A stretch of DNA of 64,000 nucleotides from Pseudoscleropodium purum (Eukaryota; Streptophyta; Bryopsida; Hypnales; Brachytheciaceae): positions 7,938,501-8,002,500 of the forward strand of contig OZ017799.1 of assembly GCA_963969395.1 (NCBI GenBank), read 5' to 3'. Both the position numbers and the translations under genes were made by a program. The number at the start of each line of letters is the position of its first letter. The first letter of the stretch is position 1. Below, piece by piece: positions 26,954 through 60,431 of this stretch. The notes under the pieces are model-generated. The model saw only the letters and a program-made list of their open reading frames with translations. It was not told the DNA's origin and did no database searches.

Positions 26954-26984
26954 ATAGGATTTTAATTTCAGTTAGGAGTAGGAG

Positions 26985-27104: not shown

Positions 27105-27113
27105 TATATAAAT
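27105..27113 (+). promoter_or_regulatory. Second TATA box of the 3.3-kb element
   Basis: TATATAAAT lies about 150 bp after the ORF stop and about 1,030 bp before the right end, and is conserved in copies 1 and 3. Its position fits the main promoter of an LTR, with the ORF then inside U3. Confidence 0.55.
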
Positions 27114-31100: not shown

Positions 31101-31951
31101 TATGGCCAAGAAGCCATATTGCCAATAGAATTTGAAATTCCTAATTTACGAGTTGCTATAAAGCACCGAGTGGGTGATTATGAGAGTTTGAGGGCAAGAT
31201 TAATCCAATTAGAGGCGTTGGATGAGAAATGGAGAGAGGCATATTTGAATACTTTAGCAACCCAAAATAGGAGAAAATCTTATTATGATTCTAAATTACG
31301 CCCTAAGGAATTTAAAGTTGGCAATTTGGTTTTGTTATATGATAGTCGGTTCTTTAAATTTCCTGGAAAATTGCAAATGCATTGGTTGGGTCCCTATAAA
31401 GTCATTGATGTCAAGGTTGACAAATCAGTACGTCCGCCCCAAAATAGCATCCGTAACCCGGACGTCCGTCCTTACAGAAGCCAGCGGACGCAGCGTCCCT
31501 CCCGCTGTCGGAAGGCGGACGGGCGGGGCGGGGCGGACGGACGGAGCGGAGGGGGCGGTTCTCGTCTACTTTGAATTAGTAGGGTTACATTTCCCAAAAA
31601 ATTAATATAACTCATGAAAATGGTTTCTTTTCCTTTTAATTCTAAGGAAACATTTAAAAAAAAATTTTATAACAAATTGCGAACCATTGCACTTCATTTA
31701 ATATTTAATTGTTTAAGGATTAAGGGAGTGACTGCGGACGGGGGGACAAGCGGACGCTGCATCCGCCGGGATCGCGAATGTCAGCAGACGCTGTGGACAC
31801 AGCGTCCGCGTCCGGACGTCCCGGACGTCCAACCGTCCTGTCAACCTTGATTGATGTTAATCCTAATGGGTCATTGCAATTAAAGGATTTTGAAAGAAAT
31901 GTGCTTCCTACTAGGATTAATGGATACTGGCTTAAGCCATATTTTGTATAA
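28136..31951 (+). pseudogene. pol of gypsy element 1: protease end, RT, RNase H, integrase
   Basis: The frame resumes after the 3.3-kb insertion with the protease C-terminus (ILLGRPWL near 28,262). RT spans about 28,780-29,560, with IMIVPKKDGRIRICQDFRKLN and the catalytic LDDF (variant of YxDD) near 29,375. RNase H (YVDASN...; TIEQEA; FYVDHDA) follows at 29,810-30,160. Integrase has the zinc-binding C..C near 30,566 and the catalytic Asp-Asp-Glu in GIDFVGP, SDRGTHF and NGQTEKTN. Breaks: TAG at 29,204; a one-base insertion and stop near 29,425-29,437; and the hAT-type insertion at 31,412-31,849, after which the frame resumes and ends with TAA at 31,949-31,951. The sequence clusters by eye with Athila/Tat-type pol. 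Confidence 0.9.
31412..31849. mobile_element. hAT-type element, 438 bp, near the end of pol
   Basis: It has CAAGGTTGACAAATC and GTCAACCTTG ends and a perfect 8-bp duplication, ATTGATGT (31,404-31,411 and 31,850-31,857). Both ends are GC-rich with CGGACG words; about 165 bp of AT-rich DNA lies between them. The AT-rich part next to the right end, read in reverse (GTCACTCCCTTAATCCTTAAAC), matches DNA next to the left end of the kinase-bearing element at 61,072. This copy therefore looks like a deletion derivative of a larger element of that kind. Confidence 0.92.
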
Positions 31952-39947: not shown

Positions 39948-41484
39948 TGTCGCAGCACAGGGCAGGTAAATTCCCCATTATACTCACAAAAATCGCTCTA
40001 GAGTATAACTAAGTGACTCTAAAGATCGAACCCACGAGATCCTGTGAAGTATCTAGCTCTATTAAGCAGTTAAGCTCAGTCAGTATCCCAATCTTACTTT
40101 CCGGTCCTAGATCTAGAACTAGAAATACCACCACACCGGATAACTATAGACCGGATTACTCCTTCTTCCGATCCTACTAACTATCCGGTCTGTGCAAATA
40201 TCCAAATCCCAGGATCTTACAACTTCCGGTCCTAGAAATCCGTCCTGACCAATCCGGTCCGGATGGTCATCATGTATCCATAATCCTATCTGGTTTGGTT
40301 TTGCCTCTGTTTCACCATCAGAGGGGTCGCCGCTTACATTTGAGAGTGGTAGGCCCACCACTCCTTCCGTGACTTATAGTGGCTGAAGACTCACTGTCCT
40401 ACTTCCTAAACTCCTAAACTAATCCGGATCCGATTTGGTCCTTCACAACAACCTAGATAGCAATCCGGGTTGTAGGTCACACAAAGACCCCATACTCGAC
40501 CCTCTCATACTACAACGACCTTGATGCTACTTCCGATCCGTGCGAAGATAGGTGGTTACAAGTGTACCCGTCCGTTCCAACATCAACTAAAGTTCTTCCG
40601 CTTACCCACACGGGTGGTGAGACCTCACAGGAGATCGAACACTCGACCGGATTTCCCACCCGGGAGTTCTAGCGTAGCTAAGGAATCCCTCCCTACCCGC
40701 CTAGCCTAACAACGGCTTTCTCACCCGGAATCTCAAACTCTAGACGTGCTGAGGAACTAAGTTCACTCCCAACTCTTCAATACCTACTCACATGCACCTA
40801 AGATCGGAAATAAAACACCAAGGGGAGAAATCACTCACAAACCGGCTCACACCATCCTAACTCCACATCATACAACCATGTCGCGCTGGAGAGAGACACA
40901 CAATGAGGAGAAGAGGAAGGCACAAGAAATTTGCAAAATGAAGACTCCCAGTTCCCATCGCAGGAACCGATTTATATACAAAGGGTAAAAACCCTAAAAG
41001 TACAAAGCGGAGCGGAAAACCCGTGGGGGTCCGCCGCCACCCTAATTCAACTTCCGGTTTAACCTAATACTGTTGAGCCGGATCCGGATCCGGATCCGCT
41101 CCTACTCCTAACTGAAATCAAAATCCTATCTACTCTACAACTCTAGATCCTACTGTCGGGCTTCTGCTCTACAGATACAGCTGTTCAAAGACTTCACTCA
41201 AGTTCCGGTTCCATTCCCCTTCTTTATATAGTTTCTGGACCATTTCCGGTTTGGTCGTCTTGAATCCGGTTCACCCATAATCCGGTCCTAGACCTAATCC
41301 GTGTTGCATTCCGTTTCTGTCGATAGTTACTCCTGATCGGATTAGATCTAAGAGGCCCACTACTTCATGTTCTGTGCTAGTTTTGAGTTTTCCTTCTTCA
41401 CCTAATCGGATTCGGTTCACTGATGGCTAGTTTCCGTTCCTATTTTGGTGCATGCTAAGAAAACCAAAATTTTAAGCTGCAACA
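39948..41484 (-). mobile_element. 3.3-kb TG...CA element, copy 3, internally deleted
   Basis: Ends are TGTCGCAGC and GCTGCAACA with a perfect 5-bp duplication, GTTAT (39,943-39,947 and 41,485-41,489). Length is 1,537 bp. It matches copy 1 except for a deletion of roughly 1.75 kb near 41,165-41,225 that removes nearly all of the accessory ORF. Both TATA boxes and the GGATCC palindrome remain. It shows that copies without the protein gene were still mobile, or that the deletion came later. Confidence 0.9.
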
Positions 41485-41850: not shown

Positions 41851-41929
41851 TTTTTAAATCATTTGTTTTTTTCTAAATTCTTGTTCAAAATTTCTAGGAG
41901 GGAAGTAGCCCTCATTATAAACTTGCTCT

Positions 41930-42105
41930 CGCAGTAAAAATCCCTTTGTATTAAAAAGGCCTTTGCATTGAAATGTACTTGTAGTAAATTTGCCTTTGTA
42001 ATACAATATTGGCTTTTTCAATGTGTGGATATTCTCAATACGAGGGCTTCTTTGATACAAATGCATTTTCATTGTAAGGGCATTTTCTCTACAAGAGTAA
42101 TTTGA
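41930..42105. repeat. Block of ACTACAAGGGCATTTTC-type short repeats
   Basis: Words such as TTGTAGTAAATTTGCCTTTGTA and AAGGGCATTTTC recur. It belongs to the same family as the large array at 54,840-60,640. Confidence 0.6.
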
Positions 42106-42429
42106 CTACACATGCAATTCATGGACAGTTGAGTTTGTCAATTTCACAACTGTCTCGATTATATGTCCAACATTCTGGGGTTGATTGGGCGAAAGAGAAA
42201 TAGCACGATTGGGGTCATTCTTTCCCTCTATTTCTTCATGGTAGTCAACGAACTGAACGGAGAGCTTGAGAAGATTTTCTAATTCTTTTGGATCGGGCAT
42301 GTCATACAAGATGTGATGCATGGGACTCCTCAAAGACGTTGTATATGGAAACTCCTGCTCCAAACGTCTTCTACGCTCGGAACTTAATCTTAAAGACATA
42401 TTATCTACTTGCACGCTGTCGTGCTGCAA
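42106..42429 (-). pseudogene. Exon-like fragment of unknown gene
   Basis: A 107-codon open frame on the minus strand. The likely exon begins after a TTTTGCAG acceptor-like site near 42,422 and ends at a stop next to the short-repeat block. It is rich in charged residues (SSERRRRLEQEF; DPKELENLLKLSVQF) and looks like real coding sequence rather than chance, but I do not recognise the family. Confidence 0.35.
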
Positions 42430-43654: not shown

Positions 43655-44050
43655 GAAGATTTGAAGATAGAAGAATCGTGTGTTGTGGCTTGTGGCTTGT
43701 CATTCCTAGCCGGATTTGGAGGCTTGCTGTTTTCAAATTTGCATTGTAAACCTGTTGCGAGCCGTGGTTATCCAATAAGCGCTCCATTTTGTGTTTGTGG
43801 CGGCGAAGTGGGGTTAATGGCCCACATGGTCGATTTTATTTGTTGTTCCCAGTGGTGAAAGGCGCTTCCTGGTTACCGTGGGTTTGAAGTTTAGGATCCT
43901 TTCCCCCAGATAGCTCAGCTCGTGGTCTGGCTGTCCCGTTTTTCCCGTCCGAAGCCATGGTTTCTTATCACATTCCCTAATCCCTGACCCATTTAGAGCC
44001 ATCACAGGATAGGCCAATGGGGAGCAGTTCCGAGACGGCAAAGAAGATTC
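43655..44050 (+). repeat. Relict copy of the gypsy element 2 leader
   Basis: This stretch is collinear with 46,575-46,950, just upstream of the gag of gypsy element 2. Shared anchors are GAAGTTTAGGATCC (43,885; 46,774), GTGGTTTCTTATC-like text, and AGGATAGGCCAAYGGGGAGC (44,005; 46,891), followed by AGAAGATTC. It is probably the remnant of an older related insertion. Confidence 0.6.
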
Positions 44051-44183
44051 AACGACCAAATTCACGAACATTTACGACAGTGTTTCACTGCGACAGCGTT
44101 TTGTTCAGACAGTGTTACGATCATTCCTGCGCAAATTCTAACCGCAGCCAGAATCCCCGTGATTTCCTGAGGCAGATCGCTCT

Positions 44184-44790: not shown

Positions 44791-44814
44791 TCGGAGAAAA
44801 ATTACCCTCGTAGT

Positions 44815-45335
44815 CAAAGTGCTTTTGTGTGGAAAGTGCCCATGTAGTCAAATTGCTTTTGCGTAGAAAATGCCCTCGTAGTCAAATTGCTTTAGGAAGT
44901 TGGCCACAAAAGAGGAAATCCTTCGTGTAACTAGTTAGTAGGCTGAGGTCTCGTTAGTTAATGGAATTAACCAGACAAATCACATTTTCATTATAAAGTC
45001 ATTTTCACTTCAAGGCCATTTTCACCATAACAGAAATTTTAGTACTTTGTCCATCAATTTGTTCTACAAATTAGAAAGCCCTGGGATTGAGGCCTAGGCA
45101 ACAATGTTTCATTTTTTTAGTGGAGGAACAACATTGGTATCACTCAAATATCATGCAGTGGAAAGTAGCAATTTGACTACTAGGGCAAATTCACCCCTAG
45201 AAATTTTTATTACAAAAGCACTTTTCTTATAAGGAAATTTTGAATACGAAGGCATTGTTATTGCAAAGACATTCTCAATACAAAGACCCTTTCACTCCTA
45301 AAATGTCTTATGACGAGGGCTATTTCACTATAAGG
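44815..45335. repeat. Block of ACTACAAGGGCATTTTC-type short repeats
   Basis: GTAGTCAAATTGCTTTTGCGTAGAAAATGCCC-like units occur at the left, and inverted forms (ACTACTAGGGCAAATTCAC, AAGGCCATTTTCACC) follow. It adjoins the apparent left end of gypsy element 2. Confidence 0.65.
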
Positions 45336-46954
45336 GTGTCATATTAATCAATGGCGGGTGGTTGGTAGGCTCTGTAGAGCATGTCGTAGGCTTAGTATTG
45401 TCCAAATGGCCATGTATTGGTCAGTGGGGGCCTATACTAGAGTTTTGAGACTGAAGGAGGTGTGAACGGAGCTATTTGGGGGCTTCTTTGGGGTGGTTGT
45501 AACCCTAGGCCGCCCCTTTGCTCCTTCACTCTCTTCAAGTCTTGCATATGTGTGTAGTTTATGAGTTGATAGGAATTGGAGCATGGATGTAATGATGATT
45601 GGTTGTTATACCAATCTTTACTAGTGTTATTCCTTGATTCATCTCGTTTTGCAAGACTAATCCAATTGAGACAAAGAAGAAGCTATCTTGGAGTGTTAGG
45701 AAAGCTTATTACTTGAAGAGAGTGAAGGAGGTGCTGATGTGAGAGCACTAGAGTTGTTAGAGAGGTTTGAATTGCTGTATTAGGGTTGCTGGCATTGGTG
45801 GTAACGTACGGAAACGCTGGTAAAATCAAATCTTGGAGCTTTGGTGTTGGAGGTGCTGATGTTGAGGTGGAGGGTGTTGGAGAGCTTCCAAGGGTAACAA
45901 GAAGATCTAAGAAGAAGCTCTTTGATGTAAGAATTCTATAGAAACAAGTTTCAAGTAATTCCGACACTTTTTGCAAAAGTTGTGTGAGTTTGAGTAGAGT
46001 GGTGAAAACCCTCATGTGTGTTGGACCAAACATGCAAAAGTGCTGATTTGGGGTTTGAGGGCCATTAGGGTGACTTGTTAGTGTTATAAACACTAGAAGT
46101 TGTTGAAGTATTCCAAAAAACTGTAAAATTGTCGAAAACTGTCAATTTTTGAAGAAGTTATGGCAGTTTGAAGTTTTGGAGTTGAAGCCTTGTTTTGAGA
46201 GGTGTTTTGTGAGGTTTGTTGACGTTGTTCAAGCTTTGATAGCTTCGAAGAACGAGAGAGACGAAGACCGGTTGACTTTTGATAGTTACCGGACCATTTA
46301 CTAGAGTAATTTTGAATATTACTGGATCAATTATCGGGGTAACTTTTGGAAGTTACTAGGGTAGTTACTGGGGTAATTTTGAAAGTTACCAAGGTAATTT
46401 CTTGGATAACTTTTGAGTAATTTTTGAAAATTATCACAAATTATTTTAAAAAATAAAAAAATAAAAAATAGTGGTAATTTCCTATTATACTAGGGGCTGA
46501 TTTTAGTTTGGAGGTGTAGAAGGAGGCCATTTAGAGGGGTTTGAAGGGCTATTAGTGGGTACAAATTTATTGTTTGTAATTGTGATGCCCTAGCCTATTT
46601 TGGAGGCTTTCTTTTATGCTTTGTGCATCATTGTTGTTGCGGGCAGCGTGGGTTACACCATTGCTTAGCTCCATTTCTTGTTGTGGTGACGAAGTGGGAG
46701 TTGTGACCCCATAGTCGAGACTTGCTTGTTCTCATGGTAAGGTTGGAGTTATGACCAGCAGACCGTGATTTTGAAGTTTAGGATCCATTTTCACTGACGG
46801 TATCTCGTGGAATGCCGTCGGTTCCACCCGTCCCATATCCCGTGGTTTTCTTATCCCTACCTGGATACTTAAACTAATCTAGAGCCTCAACAGGATAGGC
46901 CAACGGGGAGCAGTTTGACGGTGGTATAGAAGATTCGACATTTGAAGGTCGTTT
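45336..46954 (+). repeat. 5' LTR/leader region of gypsy element 2
   Basis: Non-coding DNA between the short-repeat block and the gag start. It contains a palindromic GTAACTTTTG-type repeat (46,270-46,440) and the leader with AGGATAGGCCAACGGGGAGC shared with 43,655-44,050. No standard tRNA primer site could be recognised. Confidence 0.45.
46270..46440. repeat. Short repeats of GTAAYTTTTGAAAGTTAC type
   Basis: Five or six imperfect, often palindromic units such as GTAACTTTTGGAAGTTAC and GTAATTTTGAAAGTTACC follow one another at about 25-40 bp intervals. Confidence 0.7.
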
Positions 46955-49525
46955 ATGGTTCAAACATGGACGTGTGACTACGCTGCAGAGGAAGACCAGG
47001 AGGTCGCAGTTCACGTTGAGGAGGACAGAGAGGAGCCAGCTCTACCCTCTATGAGAGTTGATCCCCTTAAGAGTTGGAGAATTAGCGTTTTTGACGACAT
47101 GGAAGACCATAATGGTGGATCCATGGTTCGTGACCGCTACTCCGGAAGAGCTGAGGGCGTGGCCTTCAATGATTGGAAGACCAAGTTTCGATCCTGGCAA
47201 CGCACACAAAGACAACGCAATGCTCTTTTCAATGATTGGTGGGCTTTTGAGCAGCTACCCACCCATCTTGAGTTTGAGGCGTTGCAAGCCTATGATTCTT
47301 GGTTTGAGGATCATAGGGTTGAGCTTGAGGAGGTGAAAGACTATTGGGCTCGAAGGGTGGAGTTAGTCACAGCGTTGAAAGAGGGAGCTGCATTCTCAGC
47401 AACTCAAGCTTCAAAGACTAGTGATGGAGATGAAGAGAAGGGCGAGGAAGCTACCTCGGGCCCTGATGCAGCACGAGCTGCGCAGTTGCTTTCTAAAGCT
47501 GCTACGAGTGGCGCTAGTGGGACTGCAACTACATTCATCTCTCGGTTGGCTCGAGCTTCAAATGAGGCAATAGCCACGATGGGCCCTCCTCCTCAGTTTG
47601 ATCCACTCCGATTGTTTTTTGAACATTTGGAGATGGAGTTTGGAGGCATTCGCCGTGATCGCATGCGCCACATCCAAGATTTCAAGAAAGAGACTGGAGA
47701 CACTCCCCGCATTATGTATGCAAGACTCTTCAAGTTTGCTCGTGAAAGCGGAGATGCATTCACGGAACGCTAGTTGGTGGAGCTTTATATGGGGAAGCAA
47801 GACAAGAAGATTCGTGATATGGCATACCCTTACATGTTGTTGGCATATGGAGGTCGAGCTACTTTAGCTCAAGCTTTTGCTATTGTGGAGCAATTGGATC
47901 GAGGGCTATGTGTAGAGGAGGCTGGAAGATTGTCATCCATTATGACTTCAACACCCAGTCAGACCAAGATTGTTGTTAGTAGTTCTAGCAAGAGCCAAGG
48001 GAACCCCAAGGCCTCCAAGCAAATTGCTATGGCAGCTGAAGTGGAAGTGACAACCAATTCTCGTATGCGGTGTTGGAATTGTGGATTGCTAGGCCACGGA
48101 AAGAGAGATTGTCCTATAGATACATCATCTGAGGGTAAGAATGGTGGGCAATCAGTTACCAACAAGAGCAATGCAACCACAACAAATAGAGGCCCACAAA
48201 AGAAAGTACAAGGTGGAGGAACACCTCCAAAGTGCACTTATGCACCTTGTGGTCGGGTTGGTCATACGGAGGACAAATGTTGGGTGAAGAACCTGCAGTT
48301 GAGGCCTCTATCTTTCACCCTACAAGGTGCTCAAGGGGGTGGATCAAATTTTAAGGGCAACAATCTTGAGGCACGCATGGGAGAGTTGCAAAATACCCTA
48401 GCATTGCTCGTTGCAGCGACAACAAAGATCACACCAGTTCCTTCTAATTCAAAGCCTGGACTAGATAGGTTTGAATATGGAGCACTTGGTGAGGTGGTTG
48501 CAGCGGTGGCTACGAGATCAGAAGCCAATTCTTTGCCAGTTGCACCCATGGTGGAAGGAAACTCAACTACTCCAGGTGGGCTTCATGTGCGTTACCAAGG
48601 GCCTCCTGATAGTATTCGGCAATCAAGATTGCCAATGACATTTGGCTTGGCAGATGTGGTAACTAGTCCATCACTTGGAGCTAGCCTTGATGGAAGAAAT
48701 TTTCCGGTAGAAAAAGACATGATGGTGAAGAGTTTGGTTGTTAAACTCTTGGAAGTTCTATTGTTTTCAGGGGTTCAGTTGCAGAGCGACAACTTTGATG
48801 CAGCTGCCGTATATCATATGGCAGGGAAAATAATGCAAGGAACGGTCCAGATGCCTGCCAATGTAGCCATGAGGGAGATGGAAGAGTCTTCTTTGGTTGA
48901 GGGTGATATGTGCACAAGGAAGGATGCTGCTAAAGAAGCAGCGAATGCCTTGCGATGTTGGAAGGGGTGGCTAAAAGAACCTCCTTCGCAAGTAGAGTTT
49001 GATAGCCACTTGAATTCAAGTGGAGAAGCTGTTGAAGTTGCCACAAGCTATTTGGCAATGGTACCAGCTCGTGCAACTCGTGAACGCTTGCAAGTCAAGC
49101 CTGGAGTGGTGCGTTTGGCCAATTCTAGCCATGTCTTTTCTGTGGCTCGAGGTGAAGCACCTCAAGTGTTTCCACAAAAAAAATTGCTTGATACGGGAGC
49201 CCAACCAGTCATGCTAGGCAAGTTGCTAGCTCAGAGTTTGGGGCTTCTTGCTAGTGACTTGGAGCCATGTCCTTTCACCATAGCAACATCGCTAGGGGGC
49301 ACAGAGCAGCCTACGGGGATGACAAAAGAGCCCCTATGACTTCAGTTCAAGGTGGGCACTGATGCGTACACTCACATCTCTGTGAGGTGTGTTGTAACAA
49401 GTGCTACGAGCTATGACATTCTTTTGGGGCAGCAAGTTTTGTACCCCATTGGTTTTGGTCATGATTCTTGGACTGAGGAGGCATGTTTTTGACTAAGGTG
49501 GTCACAAGGAGATGGATGGAAGGAG
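46955..49525 (+). pseudogene. gag and protease of gypsy element 2
   Basis: The frame begins at ATG 46,955. The N-terminal 270 codons are acidic, followed by a gag capsid-like part (FFEHLEMEFGG; MYARLFKFARESGDAF). After TAG at 47,771-47,773 the same frame continues (YMGKQDKKIRDMA...). A zinc knuckle CWNCGLLGHGKRDC lies at about residue 373, and a second CAPCGRVGHTEDKC-like one near residue 430. The protease motif LDTGAQPVML is at about residue 746 and DILLGQQVL follows near 49,420. Further in-frame stops are TGA at 49,337 and 49,490. Gag would form the particle and bind element RNA. The stops are point changes with no frame shift. Confidence 0.88.
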
Positions 49526-51256
49526 GTGATTCCCGTCATCTTTGGAGCTTTTGCTGGCGTGGTTGAGGGATTGGTGGCAGTGTATGGGTGTGGTGCAGAG
49601 TGGTTAGCAACCAGAGATTTTCTACTGGAGGGCAATATGTTTGCTATAGACTCGCCTCTAGAGTTAGATACGCCAACACAAGGCAAAATCAACTCCTTTG
49701 TAAGACATCCCAAGGATCCCATACCACCATGGATTTCACCAAAAGCTTTGGCTGAGAAATGCCATGAATTAGTGGAGAAAGTAAACCAGCAGCTATGGCA
49801 ACCACAACACACACTACCACCTCTACAACAACTGGTAGATCTTTCTGATGATCCTAAGGGCATGGTTCTTGTGGAACTATTTGCTGGACTTGGTATTGGT
49901 TTGGCTGCAATTTTGGAGGCAGGATTGTCTATACAAAGTTATACTTATGTGGACAACAACATAGTGGTGAGTAGAGCTGCAAAACATCATTTGGACCAAT
50001 TAAGAATGAAATATCCAAAGCAACTACCTGCAAGCGCTATTCAAGGTTGTATGTCTCGAGTTCCTTCAGACATTGCCTTGATTGGAGAAAATGATCTTTT
50101 GAGGTTGGGCCAAGTGGACCTTATGATGGCTGGATGGCCTTGCCAAGGGCATTCCCGGGCTGGTTCTCGCCAAGGACTCCAAGACCCACGATCAAGTTTA
50201 TTTTGGGAGCTCTTACGGTTGTTGCATTGGTGGCAATGTAGACAAGCTACAAGTGTGGCTTATATTCTTGAGAATGTGCCTCCATTGGGAGATGTTGGAG
50301 CTCAAGTTCATGAGGATGCACGATTGGTATGTCAACACCTTGGTCAGCCAGTGGCAGTGGATGTTGCAGCCCTTAGTTCTTACGCCCATCGTTTACAATG
50401 GAAGTGGACCAATTTGGCTCATATGGGAGGGATTTCTGCGGCAGTACATCGCATTAGTCGTCCCGAGGGTAGACATCTTGATGACATCTTGGAAGAGGGG
50501 CGATCGGCCCAAACAATGGTGCAAGAAGATCAACCACCGTTAGCTATAATCAACCGTATAGGAATGCCTCGATTGGCATTTCCTACTTTGATGAGTTATC
50601 CTCGGTCTTTTGCTTTATGCAATGGCGGACCGGGCTTGGTATTTGACAACACTTCTATGAGATTGGAGGAGCCGAGTGCTACTAAGCGGGAACGTGCTAT
50701 GGGTTTCCATACCGACACCACTTCTGGGCTTGGATTGACAGAGTCTCAGTGGCGTCATTGTCTTGGACAAGCCATGGACTTGACATCCATGGTTTGGTTT
50801 CTTGGGATATGCCTAGCAGCTCAACGGCACAAGAAACTTGGCCTTGAAAGCCATCTGGGGGCAGATGTTTCAGGCCAGGGGGCAAAGGGTGTTGTGCCTC
50901 TAGTAGTGGAGAAGATGGCTACTCTAAATGCTAAGGCATGGCATGATAGTGAACAGGCTTGCAGTCAAATACTTGAAAAGAAGAGAGACCAAGACGTTGT
51001 GGAGTGGCTTGTAGAAGATGAATTGCGAGGACAACGTGTATTGGCAGCATTGGCTCAAGATTTGGGAATGGAAGATGCCAAAGAGAAGTTCAAGAGGGTT
51101 TTTCTTACAAAAGAAAATCCATTTCTTGTCACATCACCTCACTTTGTAGTTGGTGCTAATGTTGGCATTAATGGAGGTGATTCGGTTGGAATGATTGAGA
51201 GTGATGATGCATCTATTGTCCTGCAAAAGGGCAATGGTGTAAGCTCTTCCAACTAG
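49526..51256 (+). CDS. Cytosine-5 DNA methyltransferase domain, DNMT3-like, inside the retrotransposon polyprotein
   Basis: This open stretch of 576 codons lies in the same frame as protease before and RT after. It has the ordered motifs of C5 DNA methyltransferases: motif I ELFAGLGIGL (SAM binding, 49,874), YVDNN (motif II), motif IV AGWPCQGHSRAG with the catalytic Cys at 50,141 and G..D.RS.LF after it, motif VI ILENVPPL (50,264), an AHR...W.NL segment like motif VIII of DNMT3, ERAMGF (motif IX-like, near 50,690) and LGQAMDL (motif X). Wording after motif IV (LFWELLRLLH) and at motifs VIII-X resembles DNMT3 enzymes; PCQ replaces their PCN. All core catalytic residues are present. It would methylate cytosine in DNA using SAM. 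The stretch ends at TAG 51,254, and RT continues after it in frame. The residues before motif I (about 110) are of unknown role. Confidence 0.92.
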   Translation: MIPVIFGAFAGVVEGLVAVYGCGAEWLATRDFLLEGNMFAIDSPLELDTPTQGKINSFVRHPKDPIPPWISPKALAEKCHELVEKVNQQLWQPQHTLPPLQQLVDLSDDPKGMVLVELFAGLGIGLAAILEAGLSIQSYTYVDNNIVVSRAAKHHLDQLRMKYPKQLPASAIQGCMSRVPSDIALIGENDLLRLGQVDLMMAGWPCQGHSRAGSRQGLQDPRSSLFWELLRLLHWWQCRQATSVAYILENVPPLGDVGAQVHEDARLVCQHLGQPVAVDVAALSSYAHRLQWKWTNLAHMGGISAAVHRISRPEGRHLDDILEEGRSAQTMVQEDQPPLAIINRIGMPRLAFPTLMSYPRSFALCNGGPGLVFDNTSMRLEEPSATKRERAMGFHTDTTSGLGLTESQWRHCLGQAMDLTSMVWFLGICLAAQRHKKLGLESHLGADVSGQGAKGVVPLVVEKMATLNAKAWHDSEQACSQILEKKRDQDVVEWLVEDELRGQRVLAALAQDLGMEDAKEKFKRVFLTKENPFLVTSPHFVVGANVGINGGDSVGMIESDDASIVLQKGNGVSSSN

Positions 51257-53227
51257 CAACCAAAGGTGGTGTCAGCACCATTAAAGGGGTCCCTAAAGGA
51301 GGAAGTAATCTTGCCAATTTACAAAGATTGGGAGATGGACATAGGCATGGAACTCACTGGTGCAGAGGCATGGAAGGTGCGAGCATTCATACACTCATAC
51401 AGGGCTTGCTTTGCTTTTAAACTCACTGACTTGGAGGGTTATAAAGGCAAGCATGTGAGAATTCAACTAGAAGATGATCATCCAGTGTTTAAACGCCCGT
51501 ATAGGTTTAGCCTTTCAGAAAAAGACGGGGTGAAATTGAGGTGCAAAGAACTTTTGGATGCCGGATTGATAGAACTTTCAGATGGAGAGTATGCATGTGC
51601 TATAGTGATGCCAGCAAAAAAAGATGTTCTTGGAAATTGGACGGAGAAGAGGATATGTGGAGATTACCGTCATGTTAACAAGAAAACAAAATCCGATCGC
51701 TATCCCATGCCAACACCTGAGGAGTTATTTGATGCAATTGGAAGGGCAAAAGTCTTTAGCACTTTGGACTTGAGGTTTGGATACCATCAATTGCCATTGA
51801 GACTTGAAGATAGGGTGAAGACAGCATTTTGGGGAGTAGATGAGGATGGAAGAGATATGCTTTTCCATTGGAAGTTCTTACCTTTTGGCTTGAAGAATGC
51901 CCCAGCAGAGTTCCAACGTGTTATGGATCAAGTCTTGAAGGGGTTGCCATTTGCTCGGTGTTACATAGATGATGTGATTATGTTTAGTGATACACCGAAG
52001 GAGTATGTACAACACTTGCAGCAAGTTTTTGAGAGGCTGCAAGCTTGGGATCTTCGCTTACATCATGGGAAGTGTAAATTCTTCCATAATCAGTTGCCTT
52101 ACTTGGGACATATGATTACACCAAGAGGCTTGGGAGTACAAGAGGCGAAGGTGGAAGCCTTGAAGAGGATCCCAATTCCTAGAGATGTATCAAGGTTGAG
52201 AGCCTTTATGGGACTAGCAAACTATTATCGACGATTTGTTCGTGGGTTCAGTCTCTTGGCAAAACCTTTGACTCGATTGACTCGGGTTGATCAAGAGTGG
52301 ATGTGGGGACCTGATCAAGAGAAGGCATTTGAGGCTTTGAAAGGAGCACTTGGTTCAGCACCAGTGTTGAGGCGGACTGATGCTCGACGACCTTTTCAAC
52401 TCCACACAGATTGGAGTATGTTGGGGATTGGAGTTGTATTGACGCAGAAGGATGATAATGGCAAAGAATATGTTATTGCGTATGCTTCACGAAGCAACAA
52501 TGATGCGGAGGCCAAATATTCATCTTATGAGGGGGAGTGCCTAGCTGTGGTGTGGGCAGTTGCACATTTCCGTCCATACCTCTATGGCCAGAGCTTTACA
52601 CTTGTGACTGATCATCAACCTCTAAAATGGTTGATGGAGTCTGATAAATTCACAAGGAAGCTTGCTAGGTGGGCCTTATTATTGCAAGAGTATGATTTTG
52701 AAGTAGTCCACAAGGCGGGGTTGCAAAACTTGGATGCTGATGGCTTGAGCCGCAATCCAAGTCCCTTAGAGGAAGATTTGACTGGTGCTCAGTGGCATGG
52801 CTCATGTGATCAAGAGGCAGTGCCAGGGTGGCATGCTTCATCTTATTTGGCTTGGATGGAGGGAAGATCCAACCAAGATTTAGGAAAGACTCAATTGAAT
52901 GTTGTTGATGAGGACTTGGATGAAAGAGGACCTCAAGTTACCACTGATGTGTGGAAAGACCAAGGGGTTCTACATCGTCTTCAACATGGGGAGTTTTTGC
53001 CTAATACTATATCTCAAGAAAGGGACCGGATAGTCCATCGTTTGGCTAGGTTTCATTGGGAGGGTGGCCTTATATTTCGTCGATGGCCGGATGGAACAAG
53101 GAGGATTGTTCCTAGGCCTAACCAACGTCTTCAACTGATACGTCAAGTTCATGAAGAGTTGGGTCATTTTGGAGTGCTTTGTATGTATTCCATGTTACGT
53201 GGTTTGTATAGGTGGATGGGCATGTGA
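51257..53227 (+). CDS. Reverse transcriptase and RNase H of gypsy element 2
   Basis: The stretch is in frame with the methyltransferase. RT has VMPAKKD..G, RICGDYRHVNKKT, FSTLDLRFGYHQ, FGLKNAPAEFQRVMD and the catalytic YIDD (51,962-51,973). LGHMITPRGL and the RNase H linker follow. RNase H has LHTDWS, the YEGECLAVVWA glutamate and VTDHQPLKWL. The segment then enters the integrase zinc-binding region (HEELGHFG, 53,140-53,165) and ends at TGA 53,225-53,227. RT copies element RNA into DNA and RNase H removes the RNA strand. All core catalytic residues appear intact over 650 codons, so decay of this part is limited. Confidence 0.95.
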   Translation, partial: QPKVVSAPLKGSLKEEVILPIYKDWEMDIGMELTGAEAWKVRAFIHSYRACFAFKLTDLEGYKGKHVRIQLEDDHPVFKRPYRFSLSEKDGVKLRCKELLDAGLIELSDGEYACAIVMPAKKDVLGNWTEKRICGDYRHVNKKTKSDRYPMPTPEELFDAIGRAKVFSTLDLRFGYHQLPLRLEDRVKTAFWGVDEDGRDMLFHWKFLPFGLKNAPAEFQRVMDQVLKGLPFARCYIDDVIMFSDTPKEYVQHLQQVFERLQAWDLRLHHGKCKFFHNQLPYLGHMITPRGLGVQEAKVEALKRIPIPRDVSRLRAFMGLANYYRRFVRGFSLLAKPLTRLTRVDQEWMWGPDQEKAFEALKGALGSAPVLRRTDARRPFQLHTDWSMLGIGVVLTQKDDNGKEYVIAYASRSNNDAEAKYSSYEGECLAVVWAVAHFRPYLYGQSFTLVTDHQPLKWLMESDKFTRKLARWALLLQEYDFEVVHKAGLQNLDADGLSRNPSPLEEDLTGAQWHGSCDQEAVPGWHASSYLAWMEGRSNQDLGKTQLNVVDEDLDERGPQVTTDVWKDQGVLHRLQHGEFLPNTISQERDRIVHRLARFHWEGGLIFRRWPDGTRRIVPRPNQRLQLIRQVHEELGHFGVLCMYSMLRGLYRWMGM

Positions 53228-54388
53228 CAAGAGGTAGCAACCTATGTAGGGAGGTGTGAAGTTTGCGATTGAGTTAGATCAAGCTTCAACACTCTAACTC
53301 CCCAATTACAACCTTTGCCAATCATGGGTTTGGGCTATAGGTGGAGTCTTGATTTTACCGGGCCATTGATGACTACATCACGAGGTGCTAAGTATGTACT
53401 TGTGATGGTAGAGCATTTCAGCAAGTGGATTGAGTTGGTGGCACTACCACAAAATTCCACGGAGTTAGCAGCAGCGGCCTTCCTTGACCGTGTATTGGCT
53501 AGATTTGGAGCTCCAGCTGAAGTGTTAACTGTCCAAGGAAGAGAGTTTCTTGGGGCATTTGAAGAGCTTTGCACTAAAGCTCTAATTGATCACCGTACAA
53601 CATCAAAAAACCACCCAGAGGCTGATGGATTAGCAGAGAGGGTGGTTCAGACGGTGAAGCGCGGTTTGCGCAAGTACGAGTTGTTGGCAGGCAATCACCG
53701 AGATTGGGATTTGAAGTTGCCATGGATAGCAATGGGTTATCGTTTCAGTCGACAGGCATCTCTTGCATCTTATAGTCCTTATCAGCTATTGTATGGCAGA
53801 AAGCCAATGTTACCGTTGGCTTTGAGGGAGAAATTAGATCCAGTTGTAGATTTGGATGACCCAAGAATTTGGACACAAGTACTACATGATCGAGCTGAGT
53901 ATTTTCAAAGGGCCATGCCAATGGCTATGGAAAATTTGGCAATAGCGCAACACAGAGATACTCTCAGATATGCGCGCATTAGAAGTGGGACTTATAGGCC
54001 TCAACTTCGACGGTTCAAAGTTGGAGATTACATGTATTTACAACGTGAGGCACCAACAACCTTGGATGTACGGGCCGGACGGACCATTTTGAGGGTCAAG
54101 GCAATTTTGCCTAATGGAGTTCTTCTTTTGGAGGGGAAGGATGGACAAGAGTGTAGAGACAACACAAAAAACTGCGCTCCTTGTCATTTGCCAATTGAAG
54201 GGACTGTGGATCCAGAGTTGGCAGTGGTTCCACTTGGATTTAAATGTTTTGTATGTGGTGAGAGCAAGGGTGCTACAACCATGTTATTGTGTGATTCATG
54301 TCAACGAGGTTGGCACATGGCATGTCTTCGACCACCATTGATTGCTCTTTCTGTTAGATGTTGAACTTGTCCTCGTTGTAGAAAGTGA
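53228..54388 (+). pseudogene. Integrase with C-terminal PHD finger, gypsy element 2
   Basis: The frame continues from RT with CEVCD (zinc-binding Cys pair), then TGA at 53,270. The catalytic core starts with SLDFTGP (first Asp). The second catalytic Asp is missing: the expected TDQG reads TVQG, codon GTC at 53,531. The Glu is kept in ADGLAERVVQ. A C-terminal RRFKVGDYMYL (GPY/F-like region) follows. From 54,245 there is a PHD finger: CFVCGES, LLCDSCQRGWHMACL and CPRCRK give the Cys4-His-Cys3 pattern; TGA at 54,362 stands where a Trp is usual just before the last Cys pair. The frame ends with TGA at 54,386-54,388. PHD fingers bind histone H3 tails, so this end could steer integration, the role a chromodomain has in chromoviruses. 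That role is inferred. Confidence 0.88.
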
Positions 54389-54839
54389 TTAGCTAGTACT
54401 ACTTTTTCAAGTGGTTGCTGATTACTTTTTTCATTGACGGAAGATTTACTCATTTTATAACATTTAATGTTGGAGTATGAGCGGTGGTTCTTGATATTGA
54501 AACTTGGATGGAGATTTCATGGAGTCCAACTACAATATTGGAAGCGATTGAGGATGGGGCTCAATTGTACCCAGCTTACCCCTTCACTTATGATTGATTC
54601 AAGCTCAGCAATGGATGGGGGCCTTTCGTCTATCTTCTTCAACATATTGATTACATAGTGAGTGTAGGGAAGTTTATTTCATTGGACTTCTGTTGCTAGC
54701 TGAGTTGCGAGGGCGCTTTACTCAGCTAGGGGGGCAATTGAATGGTTGTTCATTCATGCTTTGTTGTAGTGTGGATTTGCATGTGGGCATGTGTGTATGT
54801 AGTAGTACATGTAGTTTACGACACTTACTGTTAGCGATA
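54389..54839 (+). other. 3' untranslated part of gypsy element 2
   Basis: No coding sequence is evident. A purine tract (AGGGGGGCAA, 54,728-54,737) is followed by TTGAATGG, a possible 3' LTR start. The expected LTR copy does not follow; short repeats begin after about 100 bp, so the element seems cut off here. Confidence 0.45.
54728..54737 (+). promoter_or_regulatory. Candidate polypurine tract
   Basis: AGGGGGGCAA precedes a TG start and lies about 340 bp after the pol stop, as expected for the plus-strand primer of an LTR element. It cannot be confirmed without the 3' LTR. Confidence 0.4.
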
Positions 54840-55024
54840 CGGAGTGATACGACAAGGGCTTTCTCAATATGTGGGCATTCTCATTACAAGGGCATTTTGA
54901 AACAAAATTCATTAAATGTATTGTTGCAATTTGAGGCACTCTTGTAACATCCATTGAAAACTTAAAGGCACACCACGCAAGCAATATTACAACATAGGCA
55001 ATTTACCATGAAGGGCCTTTTCTC

Positions 55025-55354
55025 CAGGGTTGACAGGACATCCGGACGCGGACGCTGTGTCCGCAGCGTCCGCTGACATTCGCGTCCCGGCGAACGCAAC
55101 GTCCGCTTGTCCGTCCGCTGACATTCGCGTCCCGGCGAATGCAACGTCCGCTTGTCCGTCCGCCCGATTACGGCCGTCCGATCGACGCACGGACTGATCT
55201 GGTCCGCACGATCTGGGCGTCCGCCTCGGGCGGTCCATTCGTCCGCCCCGCCCGTCCGCTTTCCAACGGCGGTCAGGACGCTGTGTCCACTAGTGTCCGG
55301 ACGTCCGGAAAACGGACGCTCTTTTGGGGCGGATGTTGAAATTCGTCAACCCTG
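55025..55354. mobile_element. hAT-type miniature element, 330 bp
   Basis: It starts CAGGGTTGACAGGAC and ends TTCGTCAACCCTG, with a perfect 8-bp duplication, CTTTTCTC (55,017-55,024 and 55,355-55,362). The interior is GC-rich with many CGTCCGC words, and it contains an internal direct repeat (GACATTCGCGTCCCGGCGAA at 55,075 and 55,120). Confidence 0.92.
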
Positions 55355-55543
55355 CTTTTCTCTACGATGGAATTTTCACTATAAGAGCAAATTGACTACA
55401 AGGGCAATGTTACTACAAGGGAATGTTGAATTCAAGGGCATTTGTACTACAAGGGCTTTTTCAATATGCTCACATGGTGAAAATTTCCTTGTATTAAAGA
55501 TGTTTTGGTATGGAAAATGCTTGTAGTGATAATGCCTATATAA

Positions 55544-55606
55544 TGGGCGTGATCAGTAATCGCTCCTCCTGATTTTCAAGGGCCGCCGAGGGTGCACCTG
55601 ACATCG
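55544..55606 (-). rRNA. 25S rRNA fragment
   Basis: The reverse strand of GATTTTCAAGGGCCGCCG plus GGGTGCACCTGACA matches a conserved 25S stretch (CGGCGGCCCTTGAAAATC). Identity is imperfect on the left side. It is a short pseudogene piece in the repeat array. Confidence 0.65.
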
Positions 55607-56141
55607 TCATCCAATGAGTAGCTGTGATTCACAAAATGCTCTTGTAGTTATAATGCCCTTATAATAAAAATTTCTAGGAGTGAAATCACCCTTGCAACGA
55701 GGGCGCAATAAAAATCCCCTTGTATTGAAAAGGCCTTTGCATTGAAATGTACTTGTAGTAAATTTGCCTTTGTAATACAATATTGTGTTAAAATTGACCT
55801 TAAAGTATAAAAGCATTATTGCCACGTGGGCATTATCGCCACATGGGCATTTTTAACCTAGGAGCAATTTTACTTCTAGGGCCATTTCACACCTTCAAGG
55901 TCAAAGGGTGGTAATGTGGACCACAATGATGAAGCACAATGCTGAACCCATCGTTGCTCACCTCTTTCACGGTTGCGGACATCCTTATGACATCTTAAGT
56001 CAGGAGCATTGTACCAAAATAGAGGTTTCCGCTTGTGGTGAAAATACCCTTGCAATGAAAATGCTCTTATATTAAAAATGCCATTGAAGTAAAAATGCCC
56101 TCCTATTCAAAATGCCCCTGTAGTGAAATTACCCTTGAATA

Positions 56142-56459
56142 CAGGGTTGACGAATGTCAACGTCCGCCCCAAAATAGCATCCGTTTTCCGGATGTCTGAA
56201 CGTCCGGACGCTAGCGGACGCAGCATCCCGACCGTCGACGGAAAGCGGACGGGCAGGGCAGACGGACAGGGCGAACGGCCCGAGGCGGACGCCCAGATCG
56301 TGCGAACCAAATCAGTCCGCGCGTCGATCGGACGGCCGTAATCAGGCAAACGGGCGGACGGGGCGGACGAGGGACAGGCGGACGTTGTGTCCGCTAGGAC
56401 GCGAATGTCAACAGACGCTGTGGACACAGCGTCCACGTCCGAACGTCGTGTCAACCCTG
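56142..56459. mobile_element. hAT-type miniature element, 318 bp
   Basis: It starts CAGGGTTGACGAATG and ends CGTGTCAACCCTG with a perfect 8-bp duplication, CTTGAATA (56,134-56,141 and 56,460-56,467). It resembles the copy at 55,025 in inverse orientation, sharing CGGCCGTCCGATCGACGC-like text. Confidence 0.92.
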
Positions 56460-58149
56460 CTTGAATACAAGGGCTTTTTCGTCATGCTTGTTGCTTATGG
56501 AATTGTTTAAAGGGAAAAGCCTTAGAGAAATTTCATTAATTCAAAGTATTGATATTGATGGCATATTTGTGAGGAAGGGGTTTCGAAAAGGCCACGCTGA
56601 TCACTCTTTGTACACCTTGCCAAATTGTTGTGGTGGTGAAAACTCCCTAGTAGTGAAAATGCCCTCGTAATCCAAATTGTTTGGTATTGAAATTGCCTTG
56701 TAATAAAAGTTTCTAGGATTGAAATGGCCCTTGTAGTCAAATTGTTGTCATGGTGAAAATGATTAGGCAGTACATTAGATTCATTAGGTCCAAAAAACTT
56801 AGAGCCATTACATGTGGAGTTCAAAATGCCTTTGTAGTAAGCCTCTTTTTGATATGAAGTTGACTTAAGAATAGAAATGCCCTTGTAGTTAAAATTTCTA
56901 GAAGAGAAATAGCCCTCACACTAAACTTGCTCTTGCGGTGAAAATCCCCTTGCATTGAAAATGCCCTTGTATTGAAATACACCGGTAGTGAAATTGCCCT
57001 TGTAATATAAAATTTTGGAAGTAGTTTTTACAACCTTGAACCAAAACGAATGATCGGAAGAGGCTCTTTGGATGAAATAGAATAATTGCATTCATCAATA
57101 CAATTGCATGATGGACCGAAAGTAGATCTTGCTACAATTTTGTCAAATTCAAATGGAACCTAAAATGTCTTATTACAAGGGCAATGTCACTACAAGGGCT
57201 TTTGCAATATGTGGGCATTCTCAAAACGTGGCCATCTTTAATACAAGGCATTTTCATTACAAAGACACTTCTCTACAACGCCATTTTTGCCACGAGAGCA
57301 ATTTGATTACTAGGGCAATTTCACTTCTGGAAATTGTTATTACAAGGCAAATTCAATAAAAGGGAATTTTAAATACAAGGGCACTTTTAATACGAGGGCA
57401 TGTTCAAATTGACCTTGTAATTAAATTGCTCTCATGGTGAAAATGCCCTCTTAGTGAAAATGCCTTTGTAGCAAAATTGCACTTGTTAACAAATAGTCGA
57501 TATACTCAATTTGCTCTTGTAATAAAAATGCCCTCATAGTGAAAATGCCCTCGTTGTGAAAATGTCCTTGACAAAGAATGTCCTTGAAATGAAGTTGACT
57601 TTGGAGTAAGTTTGGCCTCAAAGTGAACTGGACATTAGAGTTAAAATGTCCTTGTAGTAATAATGTCCTTGGAGTGAGGTTGACCTCAGTTAAAATTGAC
57701 CTTAAAGTATAAAAGGCCTTCCTTGGAGTGCCCTCGTTAATAAAATTTCTAGGAGTAAAATGGGCTTCATACTAAACTTGCTCTTGTCTCACTACAAGGG
57801 CATTTTGACCACAAGAGCACTTCAAGATAAAATTTATGATAAACTTACAAATAATTTAGGGATTCATTTAAGAAGAATATTCATTATAAGTCATTTCAAT
57901 AAGCTAAAAATATATAGCATTCAAAAAATCACATGCAATAAAGGGGTTGAGGAATTAGAATCAATAAAAAGTTTTTAGTATACCTTATTCTAGATAGCTG
58001 CAATTTGGATGTTAGATGAAAAATTCAGTGCTAGATGAAGTCTCTCAAGTTTGTTTACTAACATTGTAGTTTCGCTAATGGATCAAGTACTCGTACCATT
58101 CTAAAGCACAAATGAAGAATCTCTTCGACCTTGTATTCTACTTTGTTGT

Positions 58150-58300
58150 CAATTTCAAGTGGAGATCGAGTGATTTCACGCGAGCCTCCTCCGGGAGGGT
58201 CGCCGCAGATTTTTCTAAGTGCGTGGCTGCGTCCCCCAGTTGGTTTCGGTTACCTTGTGCAGGTCGTGCGCGCCCCCGTGGCGCGCTTGGATTCTTAAGT
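58150..58300. other. GC-rich insert of unknown origin
   Basis: A GC-rich island (CCTCCTCCGGGAGGGTCGCC; GCGCGCCCCCGTGGCGCGC) in the short-repeat array. Its look suggests rDNA or spacer sequence, as with the nearby 25S pieces, but I could not match it. Confidence 0.3.
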
Positions 58301-58574
58301 TATAACAATGTTGGATGATCAATTGTGTAGGCCAAAAATGGAGCTTTTGCTACAAGGACAAGTTCACTTCTAAAATGTCTTATTACAAGGGCATTGTCAC
58401 TACAAGGGCATTTTTAATACAAGGCATTTTCATTATAAAGACATATTCACTTCAAGGCCATTTTCACCACAAGAGAAATTTTAACACTTTGGCAATTTAT
58501 CATCAAGGGCATTTTTTCTACAAGAAAATTTTCATTACACGGGCATTTTCACCAAGAGAGCAATTTCAGCATAG

Positions 58575-58723
58575 GCAGGAAGCGAATCCCTGCTCTTGTC
58601 CTGGCGCCGTGGCCCACGCTGACCAGCGCCCCGCGTTGAGCGGCGGACCAGCCGAAGCCGTTCCACATCCAACCGGGGCGCACCCGTAGCTTCCATTCGC
58701 TTCCCTCCCAGCAATTTCAAGGA
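58575..58723 (-). rRNA. 25S rRNA fragment
   Basis: Read in reverse it matches the 5' part of plant 25S rRNA: GAAATTGCTGGGAGGGAAGC, then GCGCCCCGGTTGGATGTGG and CGGTCCGCCGCTC-like text. The copy is diverged and flanked by short-repeat units. Confidence 0.75.
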
Positions 58724-59361
58724 GTGAAATTGCCCTTGTAGTCAAATTGCACTTATGGTGAAAATGTCCACGTACAAAGAATGCCCTTGTTAATAAATTG
58801 CATGTGTAGTCAAATTGCTGTCATAGTGAAAATGTGCTTCTTGTGAAAATGCCCTCATAATGAAAAGTCTTTTTTCTCAAAAATTGCTATTGTATTGAAA
58901 ATGCCCACATATTGAAAAAGTCCTCGTAGTAAAATTGCCCTTGTAATAGGACATTAGCATAGGGAAATTGCTCTCATAGTCAAACCACTCTTGTGGTGGA
59001 AATGTCCTTGTATTAAAAATGCTCTCATAGTGAAATACCCTTGTAGGAAAAAATTGATCTTGTGAAAAAAATACCCTAGTAGTGAAAATGCCTGCTAGAG
59101 ATAATGCCCTCGGAGTGAAATGCCCTCAAACTTAAAAGTGTCCTTGTATTTGAAATTTCCATGAAGTGAATTAGGCCTTGCAACATGAATCTCCAGGAAT
59201 GAAAATGGCCCTTGAAGGCGAACTGGTCGCATGTTGAAAATGTGCTCCTTTGGAAAATGCCCTCATAGAGAAAATGCCCCCTTATTGATGAATTGCGTGT
59301 GTAGTACATATATTTTGGTAGTAAAACTAGCCTTGTTGTGAAAATGCCATTGTAGTGAAAT

Positions 59362-59380
59362 GATAGTAGATAGGGACAGT

Positions 59381-59418
<38 letters not shown>

Positions 59419-59419
59419 A

Positions 59420-59475
<56 letters not shown>

Positions 59476-59497
59476 TGCTTGGTTGAATTTCTTCACT

Positions 59498-59531
<34 letters not shown>

Positions 59532-59750
59532 CGTCAACATCCGTAGGGACCATCGCAATGCTTTGTTTTAATTAAACAGTCGGATTCCCCTTGTCCGTAC
59601 CAGTTCTGAGTCGGTTGTTCACTGCTTAGGGAGAGTCGAGGTCACCCACGACGTTCTACGTCCGTCGCCCGGTCGGCACGCGGGGGTCCGCCCTTGCCGC
59701 GCGAGCAGCTCGGGCAGACCTCCGACAGCCTACGGGGTCTGGGCGCAGAA
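59362..59750 (-). rRNA. 25S rRNA fragment, about 390 bp
   Basis: The reverse strand carries highly conserved central 25S sequence, including GGTAGCCAAATGCCTCGTCA, GTGAAGAAATTCAACCAAGC and AAAGCATTGCGATGGTCCC. The first 250 bp are very close to the plant consensus. The part beyond about 59,620 diverges. There is no 18S, 5.8S or complete 25S nearby, so this is an insertion of an rDNA piece, not a working unit. Confidence 0.92.
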
Positions 59751-59818
59751 ATTTATATATCCTAGTTTACCACTTTTGTAGATTTAATGCTCACCTTAAA
59801 ATAAATCGATATGCTTCC

Positions 59819-60007
59819 TCAAATGTTGGCTTGATTAACAAAACCTTTTAATCCAAATTCAATGACAAATTTTTTGCATCCTTCTTTTAATTCTCTTAAT
59901 ATATCATCTAAAGAGAATATGAAGTCTAGGGTCATCACATACATTAGGAAATCAAGATTTGTAGTGGACACTTTGCATTTTATCTTGTGTAGATAAATCA
60001 TAGCCAT
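59819..60007 (-). other. Short ORF of unknown nature
   Basis: A 62-codon frame with ILRELKEGCKKFVIEFGLKG near its end looks protein-like, and it lies in a patch that lacks the short-repeat unit. It could be a fragment of a transposase or host gene. I do not recognise it. Confidence 0.2.
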
Positions 60008-60431
60008 CTATCTATAGTTCTTGGGGCATTTAGGGATTAAAAGCCCCCCAAAATGAAAATAGGTGACAATACAAGGGCATTTTCAATGCAAGGGGATTTT
60101 CACTGCAAGAGCAAGTTTAGTATGAGGGCTATTTCTCTTCTAGAAATTTTAACTACAAGGGCATTTTTATTCTTAAGTCAACTTCATATCAAAAAGAGGC
60201 TTACTACAAAGGCATTTTGAACACAAGGGCATTTTCAGTGGATTGGGTGTGAGCAAGGTATGATAATGGTCCATTGTAATGTACTTTGTTCATTTGTGTG
60301 AGTGTTCAAGGAATGTCATATTGAAATGTTATTGTTGTACCTTTGATATATGATGTTTTTGTTTAGTTGAATGCATTTCTTAATATGCATGTACATGTGA
60401 TTGAAATTGAAATTGGTTTGTACATGCAGTG

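Follow-up and report, generated by a model that had tools for sequence, protein, structure and literature searches.

A DNMT3-type methyltransferase on the Gag side of a conserved stop codon in bryophyte Ty3/gypsy-type retrotransposons with a PHD finger on the integrase

A 64,000-nt stretch of the Pseudoscleropodium purum genome (assembly GCA_963969395.1, contig OZ017799.1, positions 7,938,501 to 8,002,500; hereafter, the window) contains a decayed retrotransposon copy that, judged from its domains, is of the Ty3/gypsy type and belongs to one of four or more related families present in its genome. The element encodes a DNMT3-type C5 cytosine methyltransferase, which appears better described as the C-terminal part of a Gag–protease–methyltransferase open reading frame (ORF), ended by a conserved stop ahead of the reverse transcriptase (RT), than as built into one unbroken polyprotein, as a first-pass annotation had proposed: such a stop separated enzyme and RT in all 48 loci examined.

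The frame at 49493–51253 matched the C5 methylase profile PF00145 (E 5.6e-12, 46.2 bits; cut-off 22) and contained every motif that the first-pass annotation had listed, namely motifs I (FAGLG, 49880–49894), IV (WPCQGHS, 50135–50155), VI (ENVPP, 50270–50284) and VIII (YAHRLQWKWTN, 50381–50413), ERAMGF (50690–50707), and motif X (GQAMDL, 50765–50782). DNMT3A was the best solved relative in a PDB profile search and the predicted fold was likewise DNMT3-like. By sequence profile and predicted fold, the enzyme is thus of the DNMT3 type, an assignment made from profile and fold scores; together with the domain order described below, it bears out the earlier call of a DNMT3-like C5 methyltransferase within a Ty3/gypsy element of plant type. 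What the element carries appears to be the catalytic domain and not a full DNMT3, with no Pfam match to ADD or PWWP in the five element frames scanned. DRM was excluded, as motif I precedes motifs IV to X and the order is not rearranged; no DNMT1 or CMT chain was found among the best 60 structure matches listed, a listing that is no test of either family. The motif residues were kept in most copies (motif IV Cys in 27/29, motif VI Glu in 26/29, motif VIII His in 31/33 and Arg in 21/35, motif I Gly in 21/29), and the catalytic Cys, EN and AHR were invariant across an alignment of 14 relatives that included Marchantia, Calypogeia and Closterium proteins.

A search of the genome (G000; 313 Mb in 52 contigs) returned at least 81 methyltransferase matches, a lower bound with 76 of 193 candidates scored. 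The 48 loci examined were all picked by their enzyme match, and are hence uninformative on copies without it; in every one the enzyme preceded RT, and that of L053 was interrupted by a long insertion. Their identities to the window enzyme defined families of ~91–94% (family 1, 13 loci), 60–71% over most segments (family 2, eight loci), 41–49% (family 3, 20 loci) and 33–39% (family 4, six loci); L062, at 39%, was added to family 3, which it resembles in RT and PHD finger. Searching genome contigs more widely yielded seven loci, i.e. six short actinobacterial matches and one full, intact relative, L013, which is filed under a cyanobacterial metagenome-assembled genome (MAG) and is taken here as eukaryotic contamination of it. 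Over the part of the enzyme compared, L013 was 81–87% identical to the 20 family 3 copies fetched; in RT, it was 86–94% identical to family 3 in 17 of the 18 segments scored. Another homologue, P0009, is also filed under a bacterial MAG. Scanning IMG/VR with the enzyme gave 12 short matches, and with an RT–PHD alignment none.

The in-frame stop at the methyltransferase/RT junction was TAG in 45 loci and TAA in three. It was followed by the hexamer CARYYA in 46 of the 48 (not found in L055 and L066) and took the full form UAG-CARYYA in 43, with the frame open beyond. As third codon, family 1 has CCA, family 3 and most family 2 copies have TCA, and one family 2 copy and family 4 have TTA; the amino acid encoded thus varies (Pro, Ser, Leu), yet the nucleotide rule YYA is kept. 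In five copies representing the four families, no codons between positions –10 and +12 other than TAG and CAA were invariant. Elsewhere, stops were found at 0.97% of enzyme codons (n = 19,401) and 0.89% of RT codons (n = 27,396), and any single one was common to at most 10 of 43 loci. In L033, L056, L058, L059, L061 and L062, where the RT alignment starts away from the site, the motif served to place the stop, in frame; L058, L059 and L066 have a further stop closer to RT. The junction of L013 reads TAG-CAA-TCA at the same place, with no Met in the next 116 codons. Because the stop recurs in 48/48 loci, and stop-CAR-YYA in 46/48, the stop at 51254 is not a product of decay.

UAG-CAR-YYA is the type I readthrough consensus described for tobamoviruses (PMC3542737). 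Readthrough, predicted here from this motif and its conservation, is the best explanation of how RT is produced; if correct, the enzyme would be part of the abundant Gag–protease product. No report of readthrough in this lineage was found in the open-access literature searched. The stop-separated arrangement is not universal among relatives: in P0028 and P0183, enzyme and RT lie in one protein.

Pfam matches and motifs placed the domains of the window element in the order gag (with CCHC knuckles)–protease–methyltransferase–RT–RNase H–integrase, followed by a PHD finger (Table 1). This confirmed the order given in the first-pass annotation, with the knuckle and protease matches below cut-off in this copy; the single frame reported there is indeed shared by all parts, but is broken by seven stops (47771, 49337, 49490, 51254, 53225, 53270 and 54362). 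The first-pass annotation had named neither the PHD finger nor the two ends of the element. The first knuckle gave sub-cut-off matches to PF15288, PF14392 and PF00098. The protease motif LLDTGAQ lies at 49184–49204, and PF13650 reached E 0.015 in the window copy, below cut-off, vs. above cut-off in the relatives P0001 and P0002. All stops other than 51254 look like decay because the intact L013 has none at these places; a counterpart of 47771 is absent from both L013 and P0031. In addition, the second catalytic Asp of the integrase is replaced by V (VQGREF, 53531; from the alignment). With its six stops besides 51254, the window copy itself is dead.

Outside this genome, two listings contained at least 30 and at least 89 related proteins. 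The plant and algal hosts named were Marchantia polymorpha, Calypogeia fissa, Sphagnum troendelagicum, Sphagnum fallax and Closterium sp. NIES-54, so relatives were already present among deposited proteins of all four genera. For 12 elements with both parts, Marchantia and Sphagnum included, the enzyme and RT trees had eight of nine splits in common, and the single discordant split was weakly supported (81 and 54); methyltransferase branches were longer than RT branches. In comparisons between families 1 and 2, the enzyme had a median NG86 dN/dS of 0.41 (104 pairs), and RT one of 0.31 (91 pairs). Medians within families ranged from 0.57 to 0.79 (enzyme) and from 0.44 to 0.76 (RT), as expected since dead copies are being compared, and with family 3 loci containing only about the last 200 enzyme codons. 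These comparisons are most simply read as a single old capture, after which enzyme and RT were inherited together. Certain relatives show other layouts. P0029 and P0058 have the methyltransferase directly before integrase and PHD finger, with no RT between, and the domain may therefore have moved within the element. P0025, a Closterium gene model, joins a copia-type gag (PF14223) to this type of methyltransferase and may be a second class of carrier or else a fusion in the gene model; DNMT3 members in LTR Copia and DIRS elements are mentioned in PMC12344493, which cites the 2018 Klebsormidium study discussed below.

The PHD finger at the integrase C-terminus was matched by PF00628 not only in the window copy but also in L013, where it is intact (E 4.3e-10), and in P0093 (E 4.8e-10), and was found in 32 of 40 loci. 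Of the 120 proteins listed as related to the window RT, 47 bear an rve domain, and PF00628 was present in 33 of these, including all 28 of at least 1000 aa; the 14 without it measured 464–980 aa and included P0155 of Klebsormidium and Closterium proteins. One relative with a PHD finger, P0096, has a Trinity transcript name. The nearest solved fingers by sequence included those of DPF2, KAT6A, DPF3, ATXR5, UHRF1 and KDM5, several of which read histone H3 unmodified at K4. The integrase PHD finger is likely a histone reader. No report of a PHD–integrase fusion was found in the open-access literature searched.

The ends of the element were defined by the bases at which similarity to other copies stops. 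It begins with TGTCATATTAATC and ends with GTGATACGACA (TGTC...GACA), and the 4-bp duplication AGGG stands on both sides. Family 1 copies start with TGTCAT and end with GACA; the 5′ end was present in nine of 11 copies inspected and without match in the other two, the pieces L075 and L076. All six copies with both flanks read had a 4-bp target duplication. No long terminal repeat (LTR) pair was found in the window (14-base seeds; word size 7), and terminal direct repeats were found neither in the window copy nor in a second copy at C40:7.58M, matches in the outside array apart. The LTR pair is missing because the window copy is of a form in which a terminal part A precedes, and a terminal part B follows, the coding region (A-coding-B). 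In one family 1 copy, by comparison, a single target duplication encloses A-B-GC-A-coding-B, i.e. split A/B repeats. The 21 family 3 loci comprised 11 with coding-B-A-B, three in which the fetched piece ends after B-A, four with a single B and three without B; in the 11 coding-B-A-B loci, B1 and B2 differed by 1–5%. A second B was also present in L056 of family 4. The B and A ends of L013 are joined by GC (7051–7060), forming the palindrome GACAGCTGTC, and the same or a similar B-GC-A junction was seen in many family 3 copies. This group therefore combines DIRS-like split repeats with 4-bp duplications of the integrase type.

We consider it probable that these elements express a Gag–protease–methyltransferase frame and, past a leaky stop, RT–RNase H–integrase–PHD, and that the methyltransferase, likely made in excess, acts on the element's own DNA. 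The Gag–protease–methyltransferase product would build particles, while a minority of ribosomes would pass the stop and add RT–RNase H–integrase–PHD. The enzyme, packaged with Gag, would methylate either the cDNA while still in the particle or the newly inserted copy; the PHD finger would steer or tether the integration complex to nucleosomes of a particular H3 tail state. The benefit would likely be camouflage, as a copy arriving methylated would look like resident silent DNA. A fuller scenario, which we put forward tentatively, is that of a bryophyte and streptophyte-algal gypsy lineage, founded by one old capture, that pairs a DNMT3 writer, made at Gag level by means of a leaky stop of plant-virus type, with a PHD reader on the integrase, such that copies would be methylated in advance in the particle, delivered to matching chromatin and disguised as silent.

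CpG content bears on this proposal. The observed/expected CpG ratio was 0.46 in the window element, vs. 0.79 in another gypsy element of the window and 0.76 in the remainder; for selected loci of families 1 to 4, the medians were 0.43, 0.25, 0.73 and 0.40, and L013 had 0.82. The window element's loss of CpG is consistent with these elements being methylated and does not tell by whom; since depletion cannot separate self- from host methylation, it was dropped as proof of the former.

If most ribosomes obey the stop, the enzyme would be left untied to RT or integrase, and excess methyltransferase might instead enter the nucleus and methylate host chromatin or rival elements broadly, as suggested for Symbiodinium. 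While genome-wide effects of retrotransposon-borne enzymes are discussed in PMC5890265, the same source describes the Klebsormidium nitens methylome as land-plant-like, and costly genome-wide effects would bring the element little gain; we therefore regard this as unlikely. Of similarly low probability is a role as a structural or nucleic-acid-binding passenger of the particle, with catalysis secondary. The enzyme's place beside Gag and protease, its faster evolution compared to RT (longer branches; dN/dS 0.41 vs. 0.31) and the inactivity of the K. nitens enzyme in yeast (PMC5890265) would suit a passenger, but binding alone would need none of the Cys, EN and AHR residues that are invariant in 14 relatives and kept in most copies.

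With regard to the junction, the stop may be an ordinary gene boundary, in which case RT would come from its own start or from a spliced RNA, and CAA-YYA would be incidental. The window ORF downstream of the stop has a Met at residue 27, and the Marchantia and Sphagnum proteins P0033, P0113 and P0046 join enzyme and RT, perhaps via predicted introns. Nevertheless, YYA fits in 46/48 loci despite encoding Pro, Ser or Leu, and the RT side of L013 runs without Met for 116 codons, making a gene boundary less probable still than either alternative role of the enzyme. A one-off chimera or assembly artefact, to which the stops breaking the window copy might point, is refuted by the 81 matches that a single genome gave, by the stop shared at this junction by 48 loci, by the independent intact contig L013, and by relatives in named bryophytes and Closterium. 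Neither of the outcomes that the first-pass annotation gave as refuting its reading thus holds: the C5 methylase match is significant, and many other copies retain the domain.

Cytosine methylation is a means by which plants silence transposons. That a methyltransferase of the de novo type was kept through the split of at least the Marchantia-, Sphagnum- and window-type lineages implies that methylation can also help an element. A leaky stop, as predicted here, would set the amount of enzyme relative to RT and integrase and place it with Gag, thereby giving vague notions of self-methylation the form of a model that can be tested; with its PHD finger, the integrase would add a likely reader to the methyltransferase writer. 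The combination of split repeats with integrase-type duplications, in turn, raises the question of how such elements are copied and inserted without ordinary LTRs.

Table 1. Features of the methyltransferase-bearing element, in window coordinates
Feature	Position	Strand	Basis
Whole element, A-coding-B form	45337..54854	+	Similarity to other copies stops at these bases
Terminal part A (381 bp)	45337..45717	+	Present twice in the copy at C45:10.9M
gag, N-terminal part, closed by premature stop 47771	46955..47770	+	By-eye alignment to L013 (from 8612 on) and P0031
Two CCHC-like zinc knuckles	48071..48280	+	Motif positions; second knuckle by eye
Aspartic protease region, stop 49337 inside, stop 49490 at end	49184..49489	+	Weak PF13650 match
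Open frame: methyltransferase with N- and C-terminal extensions	49493..51253	+	ORF list, Pfam
DNMT3-type C5 cytosine methyltransferase domain, motifs I to X in standard order	49880..50782	+	PF00145, PDB profile, predicted fold, motifs
TAG-CAA-CCA, conserved stop and CARYYA, predicted readthrough site	51254..51262	+	Comparison of 48 loci
RT and RNase H, start of integrase H2C2	51257..53224	+	PF00078, PF17917, PF17919, PF17921
Integrase core and start of PHD finger, after premature stops 53225 and 53270	53273..54361	+	PF00665
PHD finger, integrase C-terminus, stop 54362 inside	54245..54379	+	PF00628, E 7.1e-8
Polypurine-tract-like sequence CTAGGGGGGCAAT, putative role	54726..54738	+	Comparable tract near 6937 of L013
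Terminal part B (116 bp)	54739..54854	+	Comparison with other copies

Around the element, degenerate arrays with a 17-base period (ACAAGGGCATTTTCA and its complement) extend over 41887–42135, 44793–45336 and 54855–60240, and the element seems to have inserted inside such an array. A segment at 43781–44053 is 68% similar to the element leader (46668–46939) and is perhaps the remnant of a related copy. Further features of the window include G+C-rich inverted repeats (55025–55354 and 56142–56459; 83–91% complementary) that resemble a small foldback element or one of the miniature inverted-repeat type, and an isolated 428-base large-subunit rRNA fragment on the minus strand (59371–59798). A 3.3-kb sequence occurs as 93% identical inverted copies (16235–19532 and 24832–28135), with a third, partial copy at 39947–41219; near the 3.3-kb copies lies another gypsy element (22793–31571), for which no methyltransferase match was found in the frames scanned.

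As to classification, the order RT–RNase H–integrase, an rve-type integrase and a short target duplication are those of Ty3/gypsy elements, whereas identical LTRs at both ends were not found. DIRS elements were excluded, as Pfam scans of the window frames and L013 found rve and no PF00589. Chromoviruses likewise have a histone-reader-type domain after the integrase (PMC2864245, PMC3605345); there, however, it is a chromodomain, for which the same scans gave no match, and here a PHD finger takes its place, which excluded this class as well. Compared to DNMT3A and DNMT3B, the enzyme has the same catalytic fold and motif order, but ~23% identity and no ADD or PWWP match in the element frames.

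The predicted readthrough site matches that of tobamoviruses in both stop and hexamer (PMC3542737), but is located in a retrotransposon, between methyltransferase and RT. In retrotransposons, a stop between the Gag and RT parts, with readthrough proposed, is described for VdLTRE5 of Verticillium (PMC3441728) and Tca2 of Candida (PMC2194720). These differ in being Copia-type elements with UGA and, according to PMC3441728 for both elements, without CARYYA, and the parts of the two sources that were consulted mention no methyltransferase for either.

Retrotransposons with a built-in C5 methyltransferase are also described from Symbiodinium, i.e. SymbioDIRS-Dnmt3, which shares DIRS-like split repeats, and SymbioLINE-Dnmt; these use a tyrosine recombinase or a LINE endonuclease in place of a DDE integrase and, according to the same source, are unrelated to Gypsy elements (PMC5890265). 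The closest known system is KnitGypsy-Dnmt3 of Klebsormidium nitens (de Mendoza et al. 2018; PMC5890265), where a Gypsy element with DIRS-like repeats has a DNMT3 within its Pol ORF. By that description, it agrees with the present group in its Gypsy domains, in a DNMT3-type enzyme without motif rearrangement, and in several copies under purifying selection. The A-coding-B-A-B arrangement reported there recurs here in 11 of 21 family 3 loci and one family 4 copy; the features of KnitGypsy-Dnmt3 are thus found in the group, above all in family 3, with the window copy representing the short A-coding-B form. The isolated K. nitens enzyme produced no methylation in yeast, a result its authors judged inconclusive (PMC5890265). 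Among the at least 30 and at least 89 related proteins listed, there was no K. nitens enzyme; two K. nitens RT-side proteins, P0121 and P0155, were 43% and 42% identical to the window RT among the matches listed.

The present group differs from KnitGypsy-Dnmt3 in three respects. Its named relatives are mostly bryophytes, as opposed to Klebsormidium; its enzyme is located on the Gag–protease side of a UAG-CAA-YYA stop, where KnitGypsy-Dnmt3 is described with the enzyme as part of the Pol ORF; and its integrase bears a PHD finger, which the main text of PMC5890265, as far as consulted, does not mention. The first-pass expectation that a land-plant case would be notable consequently needs qualifying: elements of this kind, with a DNMT3 in a Gypsy element with DIRS-like repeats, are already known from Klebsormidium nitens (PMC5890265), and no report of bryophyte copies was found in the open-access literature searched. 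As far as that search extends, three things appear new: the bryophyte group itself, its PHD-bearing integrase, and the location of its enzyme, with Gag ahead of a conserved stop of the leaky type.
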